64,000 nucleotides of DNA from Rhodospirillaceae bacterium (GCA_028819475.1 JAPPLJ010000060.1:1-64000); one strand, 5' to 3'. Shown: positions 22,015 through 25,137, counted from the stretch's first letter. The notes: generated from the sequence alone by a model not told the origin. Translations and numbers: made by a program.

Positions 22015-25000
22015 ATGCTGGGCGGCTTCCTCGACCGATGGCTCACCGGCTGGCGCGCCCGGGCGCTGGTCGCCGCCGGGCTCGTCGTGCTGGTCGTGCT
22101 GCCGCCGCTCCTCGGGCCGAACAGCTATATCACGCAGCTGCTGCTGACCCTGTTCGTCTTCGCCGTGTTCGGCCATGCCTGGAACCTGCTGGCCGGCTAT
22201 TGCGGGCTGCTCTCCTTCGGCAACCAGGTCTATGTCGGCATCGCCGGCTTCACCATGGCGATCCTGGTCTACTACGGCGGCGTCCATGTCTGGGTTGCCA
22301 TGCCGATCGCCGGCCTGGTTTCCGCCGCCTTCGCCTTCCTGCTGGCAATCCCGGTGCGCACCAGCCTGATCGGCCCGGCGGTGCTCAGGCCGGTCGCCGT
22401 CGCGGTCGCCCTCTGGATCGGCTACGAAATCCTCGTCTACTACGATCCGTGGTGGGACGTGTTCGGCGATCCCTACGTCCGCCGGGTGATGATCCTGCTG
22501 CTCATTTTCCTCGGCGCGATGCCGCTGCTCACCCTGGAAGGCGCCTATTTTGCAGTCGCGACCTGGCTGATTGCGGCGGCGGTCGGCACCGTCTTCAACG
22601 AATGGAAGCTGGTCGGCGCCGGCGGCGGCATGCGCATCCCGTCCTCGGTCACGCTGGAGGAGATGTATTATGTCGGCCTGATCCTGCTGGTCTTCGCGAC
22701 CTGGATCATCCGGGCCCTGCTGAACAGCCAGATCGGCCTGGCGCTCACCGCCGTGCGCGACGACGCCGAGGCGGCGGGGACCGTCGGCGTCGACGTCGCC
22801 AAGGTCAAGCTGCTCGCCTTCGTCCTGTCCGGGGCGCTCACCGGCCTCGCCGCCAGCCTCTATTTCGTCGATGCGGTGTCGCTGACGCCGCCGTCGGCCT
22901 TCACGGTTTTCTGGTCGGCCTATTTCGTCTTCGTCGCGGTCGCCGGCGGCATGGGCAGCCTGTCCGGCCCGATCGTCGGCGCGCTCATCTTCGTCGTCAT
23001 CGACCGGCTGCTCTCCGGCTGGCTCGACCAGCCATTGCTCGTGCTCGGTCTGGCCTCGGTCATCGTGATCCTGGTGCTGCCGCGCGGCGTCGTCGGCGCG
23101 CTCGACGTGCTGCGCAGCGCGCGCGACGCCCGCTCGGCCTGGCGCGAACTGTTCGAGGCGACCGCGCTGGCCGACCTGATCGGCCGGCTCGGCCGCCATC
23201 GCCGCGCGCGCGACGGCAACGCGGTCGTCGCCGCCTTCCTGGTGCCCGGCACGCCGTTGCCGCTGCTACGGCCCGACGCGCCCGGCTGGAAAACCCTGCT
23301 CGATGGATACAGGGAAGCCGCCCGGTCGCTCGAAAAAGCGCGGCCCGACGTTCTCCTCGTCTACTCGACCCAGTGGATCGCGGTGCTCGACCAGCTCTGG
23401 CAGACCAGGCCGCGGGTGCGCGGCATCCATGTCGACGAGAACTGGCACGCCTTCGGCGACCTGGCCTACGACTTCGACATCGACGCCGAACTGGCCCAGG
23501 CCTGCATCGACCAGTCCGACGATGTCGGCGTGCGCTCCAAGCCGGTCAACTACGACCGCTTCCCCATCGATACCGGGACGATCGTCGCGGCGAACCTGCT
23601 CAATCCGGACTCGCGCCGGCCCCTCGTCCTGGCGTCGAACAACCTCTACCACGACGGCGCGCTGACCGGGCGGCTGGCGGCGCTTGCGGTACAATGCGCG
23701 GCCGAACAGGGCAAGCGGGTGGCGCTGATCGGCGTCGGCGGCCTTTCCGGCGCGGTGCACCGGCGCGAGATCGACCCGGCCGAGGACAGCTTCGCCGGCG
23801 ACGCCGACGACCACTGGAACCGCCGCCTGCTCGACGCGCTGATCGCCGGCGACGTCTCGCAACTCCGCGCCCTGCTGCCGGACTATGCGGCCAACGCCCG
23901 GGGCGACATGGGCATGAAGCATCTGGAATGGCTGCTCGGCGGGGCCGGGCCGCAATGGCGCGGCGCCTACGTCCACGCCTACGGGCCGGTCTGGGGCAGC
24001 GGCGCGGCGGTGGTCGAACTGGCGCTCGACGACCGGCTCGCCCGGCGCGGCCGGGCGCGCGGCATTCCCGCCGAAGCCAAACGCCGGCTGACGGTAAGCG
24101 GCGATGCGCCGGAGTCTGCCGCAGAGCCGCCCCCGAAATCGTCAGTCCCGAAACCGTCAGCCCCGAATCCGTCAGTCGCCGCGCAGCCCGCCGCTCCCGG
24201 TCCGTCCCGCCGGGCTGCCGCGCCTGCCGCTGTAACAGCGCCGGCGTCGGCGGCCGCTTCGGGCGGCTTCCTGTACCGGAATTTCCGCACCCAGGCGGAG
24301 ATCGACGCGCAATACGATGTCGAAGCCTCGGTCGAGGATTTCGGCGCCTGTGTCGAGTTCTTCCTGTCGAACAGCGAGCGGGTGCGCCGCAAGCTCAAGC
24401 CCGCGCTCGACATCGCCTACGGCCCGACCGCGGCCGAGCATCTCGACCTCTATCCGGCCCGGGCGCCGGATGCGCCGCTGCACCTGTTCATCCACGGCGG
24501 CTACTGGCATTCGCTGAGCAGCAAGGAATTCAGCTTCGTTGCCGAGGGGCTGGTCGAGGCCGGCGTCGCCGTCGCCGTCCTCAACTACGACCTCTGCCCG
24601 AACGTGACGATGACCGAGATCGTGCGCCAGAACCGGGCCGCCGTGAAATGGCTCTACGAGAACGCGGCGCGCCATAACTGCGACCCCGATCGGATCTCGG
24701 TCTCCGGCCATTCCGCCGGCGGCCATCTCACCGCCATGCTGATGGCGACCGACTGGGCCGGCGCCTGGGGCCTGCCGCCCGACGCCGTGAAAAGCGGCTG
24801 CGCGGTCTCCGGCCTGTTCGACCTCGCGCCCTTCGAACACAGCTGGCTCCAGCCCAAGCTGAAGCTGAACGCTGAGGAGATCGAACGCAACAGCCCGATC
24901 CGGCACATCCCGCAGTCCGCCGGGCCGCTGATCGTCACGCTCGGCGGCGACGAATCGGCGGAGTTCCACCGCCAGTCCCAGGATTTCCTCGCCGCCTGGA

Positions 25001-25137
25001 CCCGCGCCGGCCTGCCGGGCGCCTATCTCGACCTGCCCGGCCTCAACCATTTCACCGTGCTCGAAGGCTACATGGACCGCCGCAGCCCCCTGTGCAGCGC
25101 CATCCTCCGCCAGATCGAGGAGACGCGGGTGGGGTAG
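22015..25137 (+). CDS. three-part fusion: LivM-type permease + AmnA-type dioxygenase alpha subunit + arylformamidase-like hydrolase
   Basis: A single uninterrupted 1040-residue frame. Residues 1 to about 385 form a LivM-type ABC permease (AGYCGLLSFGNQVYVGIAGF, LEGAYFAVATW, ALTAVRDDAEAAGTVGVDV) with about 60 extra, mostly hydrophobic residues before LEGAYF. Residues about 402-672 match the AmnA-type subunit encoded earlier in the operon ([39 protein letters not shown]), also without metal ligands. Residues 672-752 are a Pro/Ala/Ser-rich linker with three 15-nt repeats. Residues 753-1040 are an alpha/beta-hydrolase of the kynurenine-formamidase type, with oxyanion motif HGGYW (827-831), GHSAGGH nucleophile Ser900, Asp979 and His1012. 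No stop or plausible internal start lies at the permease-dioxygenase junction. The enzyme parts are probably cytoplasmic, tethered to the transporter; that is inference. Confidence 0.85.
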   Translation: MLGGFLDRWLTGWRARALVAAGLVVLVVLPPLLGPNSYITQLLLTLFVFAVFGHAWNLLAGYCGLLSFGNQVYVGIAGFTMAILVYYGGVHVWVAMPIAGLVSAAFAFLLAIPVRTSLIGPAVLRPVAVAVALWIGYEILVYYDPWWDVFGDPYVRRVMILLLIFLGAMPLLTLEGAYFAVATWLIAAAVGTVFNEWKLVGAGGGMRIPSSVTLEEMYYVGLILLVFATWIIRALLNSQIGLALTAVRDDAEAAGTVGVDVAKVKLLAFVLSGALTGLAASLYFVDAVSLTPPSAFTVFWSAYFVFVAVAGGMGSLSGPIVGALIFVVIDRLLSGWLDQPLLVLGLASVIVILVLPRGVVGALDVLRSARDARSAWRELFEATALADLIGRLGRHRRARDGNAVVAAFLVPGTPLPLLRPDAPGWKTLLDGYREAARSLEKARPDVLLVYSTQWIAVLDQLWQTRPRVRGIHVDENWHAFGDLAYDFDIDAELAQACIDQSDDVGVRSKPVNYDRFPIDTGTIVAANLLNPDSRRPLVLASNNLYHDGALTGRLAALAVQCAAEQGKRVALIGVGGLSGAVHRREIDPAEDSFAGDADDHWNRRLLDALIAGDVSQLRALLPDYAANARGDMGMKHLEWLLGGAGPQWRGAYVHAYGPVWGSGAAVVELALDDRLARRGRARGIPAEAKRRLTVSGDAPESAAEPPPKSSVPKPSAPNPSVAAQPAAPGPSRRAAAPAAVTAPASAAASGGFLYRNFRTQAEIDAQYDVEASVEDFGACVEFFLSNSERVRRKLKPALDIAYGPTAAEHLDLYPARAPDAPLHLFIHGGYWHSLSSKEFSFVAEGLVEAGVAVAVLNYDLCPNVTMTEIVRQNRAAVKWLYENAARHNCDPDRISVSGHSAGGHLTAMLMATDWAGAWGLPPDAVKSGCAVSGLFDLAPFEHSWLQPKLKLNAEEIERNSPIRHIPQSAGPLIVTLGGDESAEFHRQSQDFLAAWTRAGLPGAYLDLPGLNHFTVLEGYMDRRSPLCSAILRQIEETRVG
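24133..24177. repeat. three 15-nt tandem repeats in the fusion-protein linker
   Basis: CCGAAATCGTCAGTC, CCGAAACCGTCAGCC and CCGAATCCGTCAGTC follow one another in frame and encode Pro-Lys/Asn-Ser/Pro-Ser-Val/Ala. They lengthen the flexible linker before the hydrolase domain. Confidence 0.8.

Follow-up and report, generated by a model that had tools for sequence, protein, structure and literature searches.

A single gene in a 64,000-nucleotide stretch of DNA from a Rhodospirillaceae bacterium (GCA_028819475.1, JAPPLJ010000060.1:1-64000; hereafter the window) encodes a joint three-part protein, natural and conserved among its relatives, in which a LivM-type permease of an ATP-binding cassette (ABC) importer continues into an AmnA-type dioxygenase alpha subunit, which we call alpha', and then into a hydrolase that resembles arylformamidases. 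The frame is open over 1040 codons, from the ATG at 22015 to a stop ending at 25137, and in a simple gene caller based on codon usage it scores highest among the coding frames of the region. Its Pfam domains are BPD_transp_2, LigB (residues 422-650) and BD-FAE/Abhydrolase_3 (812-991), and its last hydrophobic segment ends at residue 368, with none C-terminal of that. The original prediction, made from the sequence alone, had described one continuous frame with these three parts and with the motifs HGGYW and GHSAGGH in the last of them; the open frame, the domains and the homologues all agree with it.

A natural and conserved fusion

Six full-length homologues have the same domain order, each in one frame and without internal stops, at 97% (L001), 91% (L002), 89% (L003), 75% (L004), 60% (L009) and 59% (L011) identity; the last two (genomes G391 and G392) came from another collection, which gives no kinship information. 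The fusion frame is uninterrupted in seven genomes, the window's included, and is cut in three more (L005, L006/L007 and genome G007) by contig ends only. Within the window's genus it is present in all seven genomes examined, split in two of them solely by contig ends. A second genus of the family (G007) also has it, interrupted within the linker where a contig ends, a third (G008) has a free alpha alone and no fusion, and two genomes of a fourth gave no match. Of 385 genomes sampled from the class, only seven hold relatives of the alpha (E 1e-60), and fused ones are confined to the window's genus.

Purifying selection acts on each of the three domains. When the window is compared with L001-L004, the ratio of nonsynonymous to synonymous substitutions (dN/dS, Nei-Gojobori) amounts to 0.08-0.17 in LivM, 0.05-0.14 in alpha' and 0.12-0.17 in the hydrolase, while it rises to 0.39-0.61 in the linker, which is weakly constrained. 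Values against L009 are 0.30-0.42, figures that are distorted by saturation and composition. That separate genes were joined by an artefact of assembly or sequencing could be suspected from the state of the data, the window belonging to a draft assembly of 72 contigs (estimated completeness 96%) and other assemblies breaking in the linker. Yet assemblies made independently from different species contain the same fusion, at identities as low as 59-60%, its parts are under selection and its junctions share no start codon, so that we consider this explanation improbable enough to be set aside. A missed stop or frameshift is likewise ruled out as the cause of the fusion by the independent assemblies, the selection and the conservation of the operon. 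In no relative did we find a stop or frameshift at either junction, nor are the three parts always separate genes. The linker sequence is repetitive, and contig breaks fall inside it in L006/L007 and G007 (contigs C226/C427); because assemblies break in this linker, databases may list the protein as two fragments.

The junctions themselves bear the marks of two genes that have lost their start codons. When the operon's free AmnA (starting at 17401) is aligned with the fused part, its Met1 stands opposite Asn402, and the fused part begins where the free protein begins, as had been predicted. Within 20 codons before and 12 codons after either junction, no ATG, GTG or TTG is common to all seven full-length copies, and at the second junction any start codon at all is present in only one of the seven (a TTG). 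Free relatives of the hydrolase begin with Met-Leu-Tyr-Arg, in place of which the fused copies have Phe/Val/Ala-Leu-Tyr/Phe-Arg. Since the junctions have no common start and the methionines are replaced in the fused copies, neither appended gene retains its start codon, and internal translation starts yielding separate proteins are ruled out by the lack of a start codon common to all copies. The claim that the first junction holds neither a stop nor a plausible start agrees with this, and so does the description of the second as a Pro/Ala-rich linker with 15-nucleotide repeats. The first junction is of near-constant length among full-length copies (0-1 residue difference).

The fused alpha subunit is non-catalytic

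Alpha' matches the alpha subunit of 2-amino-5-chlorophenol 1,6-dioxygenase (CnbCa, 3vsg_A) with 339 bits, and the free AmnA of the operon does so with 338.8 bits. In an AlphaFold model of the fusion, built from a 65-row alignment whose rows are thin for LivM, alpha' and the hydrolase are predicted with confidence and residues 688-749 are predicted to be disordered; the modelled fold of alpha' has a template-modelling score (TM-score) of 0.92 to 3vsg_A, normalised by the target. The label of ring-cleavage dioxygenase subunit given in the original prediction stands as far as the AmnA-type alpha is concerned, and fails for ring cleavage itself. In an alignment of all alphas and betas, the beta subunits carry His13, His62, His195 and Glu251 (3vsg_B numbering), and the operon's free AmnB retains the iron ligands His13, His62 and Glu251 as well as His195, whereas the window's alpha' has Gly, Gln, Gly and Asp at the same positions. 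This is common to every alpha, free or fused, which all have Gly, Gln, Gly and Asp/Glu there, save for one fused Asn and one fused Ala at position 195. Lacking the ligands and the catalytic histidine of the beta subunits, alpha' is unable to bind iron or cleave a ring, and ring opening requires the separately encoded AmnB; the fused domain as the ring-opening catalyst is thus ruled out.

The role to be expected from the family is most likely that of a non-catalytic partner of a beta subunit. Alpha' keeps 56 of the 63 positions that are invariant across 20 unfused alphas. Moreover, the loops modelled with low confidence (residues 453-464 and 511-514) are rich in universally invariant residues (8 of 16, versus 48 of 252 elsewhere; Fisher p 0.007), a pattern that would fit a surface ordered by a partner and that we take as an indication, not as proof. 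In solved structures, two alpha-beta pairs associate via their beta subunits (PMC10470539).

The hydrolase domain

Of the fused parts, the hydrolase alone looks catalytic from its residues. Besides HGGYW (827-831) and GHSAGGH with Ser900, it has an acid at 979/980 and His1012; HGGYW, Ser900, His1012 and Glu980 are invariant in all seven copies, and position 979 is Gly in L003. Its sequence matches 9n8r, 2pbl and the Drosophila kynurenine formamidase 4e11, and its modelled fold has TM-scores of 0.95 to 9n8r and of 0.75-0.78 to kynurenine formamidase, normalised by the target. Free relatives sit in telling surroundings: one in Halococcus (L013) adjoins a kynureninase (352 bits, above the cut-off), one in Aquitalea (L064) adjoins a 3-hydroxyanthranilate 3,4-dioxygenase, one in Pseudomonas (L059) has a full amn cluster at a distance of about 1 kb, and that of L010 (75% identical) comes directly after a free, unfused amnB-amnA. 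Several more distant relatives are found in other phyla downstream of complete, unfused Liv operons (L025, L026, L029, L034 and L039). Together, contexts and motifs point to an arylformamidase-like enzyme that would act on imported compounds. The window's genome also has a kynureninase (above the TIGR01814 cut-off) near another LivH-M-G-F operon (L151:2613-8936).

Origin of the fusion

In the tree of alphas, those encoded as free proteins in the operon cluster together and the fused alphas fall into two groups, whose union is not rejected by an approximately unbiased (AU) test (p 0.31), leaving a single origin of the fused alphas neither rejected nor shown. We discarded the idea that alpha' was copied recently from the free alpha gene nearby, as the fused alphas fall outside the free-alpha clade. 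The fused hydrolases group with the L010 hydrolase (98 in the Shimodaira-Hasegawa-like approximate likelihood ratio test, SH-aLRT), near those of Halococcus and cyanobacteria, and the order of alpha' and hydrolase in the fusion is the order of amnA and hydrolase in L010. The simplest reading would be that a copy of an adjacent amnA-hydrolase pair was joined to the 3' end of livM, either before the carriers split, or once with later transfer.

Operon, importer and surroundings

The fusion closes an operon in which it is preceded by genes for the catalytic beta subunit, the free alpha subunit, a binding protein, LivG, LivF and LivH, with a divergent LysR gene before and a convergent sulfatase gene after (Table 1). 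From amnB onward, gene order is identical in all relatives whose contig extends far enough; the LysR gene is absent from the stretches retrieved for L009 and L011. The gene set of a Liv-type importer is complete, with a type I binding protein, two ABC ATPases and two BPD_transp_2 permeases, and since the fusion holds the operon's only LivM, the importer needs the fusion protein.

Table 1. Features of the fusion gene and its operon in the window (positions in nucleotides)
Feature	Position	Strand	Basis or remark
LysR-type regulator, divergent	15291..16184	-	Pfam; kept beside operon
AmnB-type catalytic beta subunit	16448..17404	+	570 bits to 3vsg_B; active-site residues
Free AmnA-type alpha subunit, overlapping amnB by 4 nucleotides	17401..18213	+	339 bits to 3vsg_A
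Liv-type substrate-binding protein	18228..19493	+	Peripla_BP_6
LivG-type ATPase	19603..20319	+	ABC_tran and BCA_ABC_TP_C
LivF-type ATPase	20300..21067	+	Domain and family models
LivH-type permease	21064..21987	+	Domain and family models
Fusion gene, 1040 residues: LivM, AmnA-type alpha', linker, arylformamidase-like hydrolase	22015..25137	+	Open frame, Pfam, full-length homologues
LivM-type permease part, residues 1-385	22015..23169	+	BPD_transp_2 and LivM/UrtC models; operon's only LivM
Junction 1, residues 386-401, Arg-rich, without common start codon	23170..23217	+	
Alpha' domain, residues 402-672, AmnA-type, non-catalytic	23218..24030	+	3vsg_A match, fold, residue comparison
Linker, residues 673-751, Pro/Ala-rich, length-variable; predicted disorder 688-749	24031..24267	+	
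15-nucleotide tandem repeat within linker, 3.1 copies	24132..24177	+	
Arylformamidase-like alpha/beta-hydrolase, residues 752-1040	24268..25134	+	Pfam, motifs, fold

Two observations concern related loci. In the third genus (G008, L110:8474-16372), amnB and amnA lie, unfused, beside an amidohydrolase and a different ABC transporter, whose type is assigned solely on gene order and N-terminal sequences; here too, the dioxygenase is paired with an importer. In the window itself, the operon is followed (25392-34634) by the convergent sulfatase, an alpha/beta-hydrolase, alpha and beta subunits of a Rieske ring-hydroxylating oxygenase, a short-chain dehydrogenase/reductase and a TRAP-type binding protein; sulfatase and Rieske genes also come after the fusion in L003 and L005, and the sulfatase in L002 and L007. 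Further on are a hydantoinase A/hydantoinase B (oxoprolinase) pair (34735-38588), a second hydantoinase A (46352-48451) with a neighbour gene at 48448, and a candidate similar pair at 55676-59518. With several amidases (6088, 40379 and 42589), the region is rich in amide- and lactam-cleaving enzymes.

A proposed membrane-docked pathway and its alternatives

We infer a mechanism that goes beyond the architecture in its docking, cytosolic side, substrate, reaction order and activity. The LivM part would still work, as the second permease subunit of a Liv-type importer formed with the binding protein, LivG, LivF and LivH. Its C-terminus is taken as cytosolic because a LivM-LivG fusion encoded in the same genome has its ATPase at the C-terminal end. 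Alpha' would pair with the free AmnB as AmnA does, bringing the enzyme that cleaves the ring to the transporter's inner side, and the hydrolase would strip a formyl (or small acyl) group from an imported arylamine, or act on the ring-opened product, the substrate being presumably a 2-aminophenol-like compound. Import, deprotection and ring cleavage would then occur in one place, which would limit the escape of the reactive semialdehyde; 2-aminomuconic semialdehyde converts spontaneously to picolinic acid (PMC3790839, PMC10470539). We see this reading as a whole, in which LivM completes the importer, alpha' provides AmnB with a docking site at the membrane and the hydrolase removes a formyl or other acyl group from an aminophenol-like cargo, as evenly poised between right and wrong. 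That the permease is the scaffold of a catabolic metabolon, with alpha' docking the beta subunit on the cytosolic side and a formamidase processing the entering compound within a single complex, is plausible, although we lean slightly against it. The coupling of import to ring opening and hydrolysis that the original prediction had put forward remains a sound hypothesis and not something that the sequence demonstrates, and its image of a permease carrying the ring-cleaving enzyme is not supported in that form, AmnB being the product of a separate gene.

Several results weigh against this mechanism. With a free alpha for AmnB already encoded in the operon, alpha' may serve something else. The hydrolase does not reach the threshold of the closest NCBIfam model and could instead be an esterase. 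The binding protein has no solved relative in the PDB at E 1e-6 from which a ligand could be inferred, and the LivM part of the AlphaFold model is poor, the alignment being thin there. In the window's genome, the best matches for an AmnC-type semialdehyde dehydrogenase (TIGR03216, 489 bits versus a cut-off of 693) and for an AmnG-type hydroxy-oxovalerate aldolase (TIGR03217, 56 versus 286) stay below their thresholds, so that the substrate may be something other than 2-aminophenol. The genome has no recognisable form of the usual lower aminophenol pathway, for which other enzymes could substitute: either these deal with the semialdehyde, or the semialdehyde escapes or undergoes cyclisation, or the real substrate is a different compound.

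Other readings account for part of these data. The covalent union could serve equal dosage only, with the linker cut after synthesis, the domains free in the cytosol and no metabolon at all. A long, variable, weakly constrained linker that is predicted to be disordered is what such a scheme would need, and the hydrolase occurs as a free protein elsewhere; however, overlapping genes in one operon already provide dosage control, the short LivM-alpha' junction of constant length (0-1 residue) is unlike such a linker, and the fusion has been retained across about 40% sequence divergence, all of which makes this option unlikely. Alternatively, alpha' could be a ligand sensor. As a catalytically inactive dioxygenase fold, it would bind either the substrate or the product of ring cleavage in the cytosol and throttle the importer by trans-inhibition, following a logic comparable to that of the regulatory domains of MetNI and ModBC. 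Its direct fusion to the permease, its lack of catalytic residues and the presence of a free alpha to serve AmnB would suit this role. Yet all alphas, free ones too, are without these residues, so that their loss is uninformative on a new role, and the 56 of 63 invariant positions that alpha' keeps are more than a mere sensor should need; we hold the sensor to be distinctly improbable.

A further alternative concerns the order of reactions: the hydrolase could come second, once the ring of an N-heteroaromatic diol has been opened, and attack the N-formyl or similar compound that results. A dioxygenase followed by a deformylase has been proposed for 3,4-dihydroxypyridine, where dioxygenase and hydrolase come in pairs (PMC7356986), and such a route would be consistent with the missing markers of the lower aminophenol pathway. 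Against it, AmnB (570 bits) and AmnA (339 bits) closely resemble true aminophenol dioxygenases, and the nearest relatives of the hydrolase sit with kynurenine-pathway genes. We give this order little credit, without dismissing it.

The hand-over of substrates from ABC importers to the enzymes that use the cargo is usually assumed to be diffusive. If docking of AmnB to the permease is true, transporter-to-enzyme hand-over becomes directly testable with one purified complex, and a pseudo-enzyme subunit will have found a new use as the membrane anchor of its catalytic partner.

Comparison with known systems

Each part of the protein comes from a known family, and their combination yields a Liv-type importer whose permease bears domains derived from enzymes. 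We found no description of this architecture in the open-access literature, and nothing relevant there on fusions of LivM or other ABC permeases with enzymes, in line with the initial statement that no transporter of this kind was known to have been described. With the Liv/HAAT importers (LivJ/K-H-M-G-F) the system shares a binding protein, two ATPases and two permeases, and differs from them in what is attached to the permease, here a hydrolase and the alpha subunit of a dioxygenase instead of a component of the transporter. Fusion of LivM at its C-terminus to its own ATPase does exist in the window's genome, where LivM and LivG lie in one open frame (L148:177-2882, minus strand, contig C54; BPD_transp_2 and ABC_tran).

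Among hydrolases, kynurenine formamidase (PDB 4E11), 9N8R ('Lipase 1') and 2PBL share HGGYW, GHSAGGH, the acid, the His and the fold with the fused domain, which, unlike kynurenine formamidase, is the C-terminal part of a membrane protein and has a putative activity; the zinc-dependent bacterial KynB (PMC4243253) is unrelated to it. The dioxygenase side resembles AmnAB/CnbCaCb (PDB 3VSG, 8IHG and 7TXY) in its free AmnB with a full active site and in the closeness of both the free AmnA and alpha' to CnbCa, the difference being that here a second alpha copy sits on a permease. In the amn operon of LB400 the dioxygenase genes are accompanied by the lower-pathway genes amnCDFEHG (PMC3790839), whereas here they are accompanied by importer genes. 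Finally, a logic of co-localisation is shared with the ARO bacterial microcompartment that contains an aminophenol dioxygenase, which is proposed to prevent the conversion of the unstable product of ring cleavage to picolinic acid (PMC10470539). There, the means are a protein shell and an aldehyde dehydrogenase; here, if our reading is right, they would be tethering to an importer, with no shell genes.

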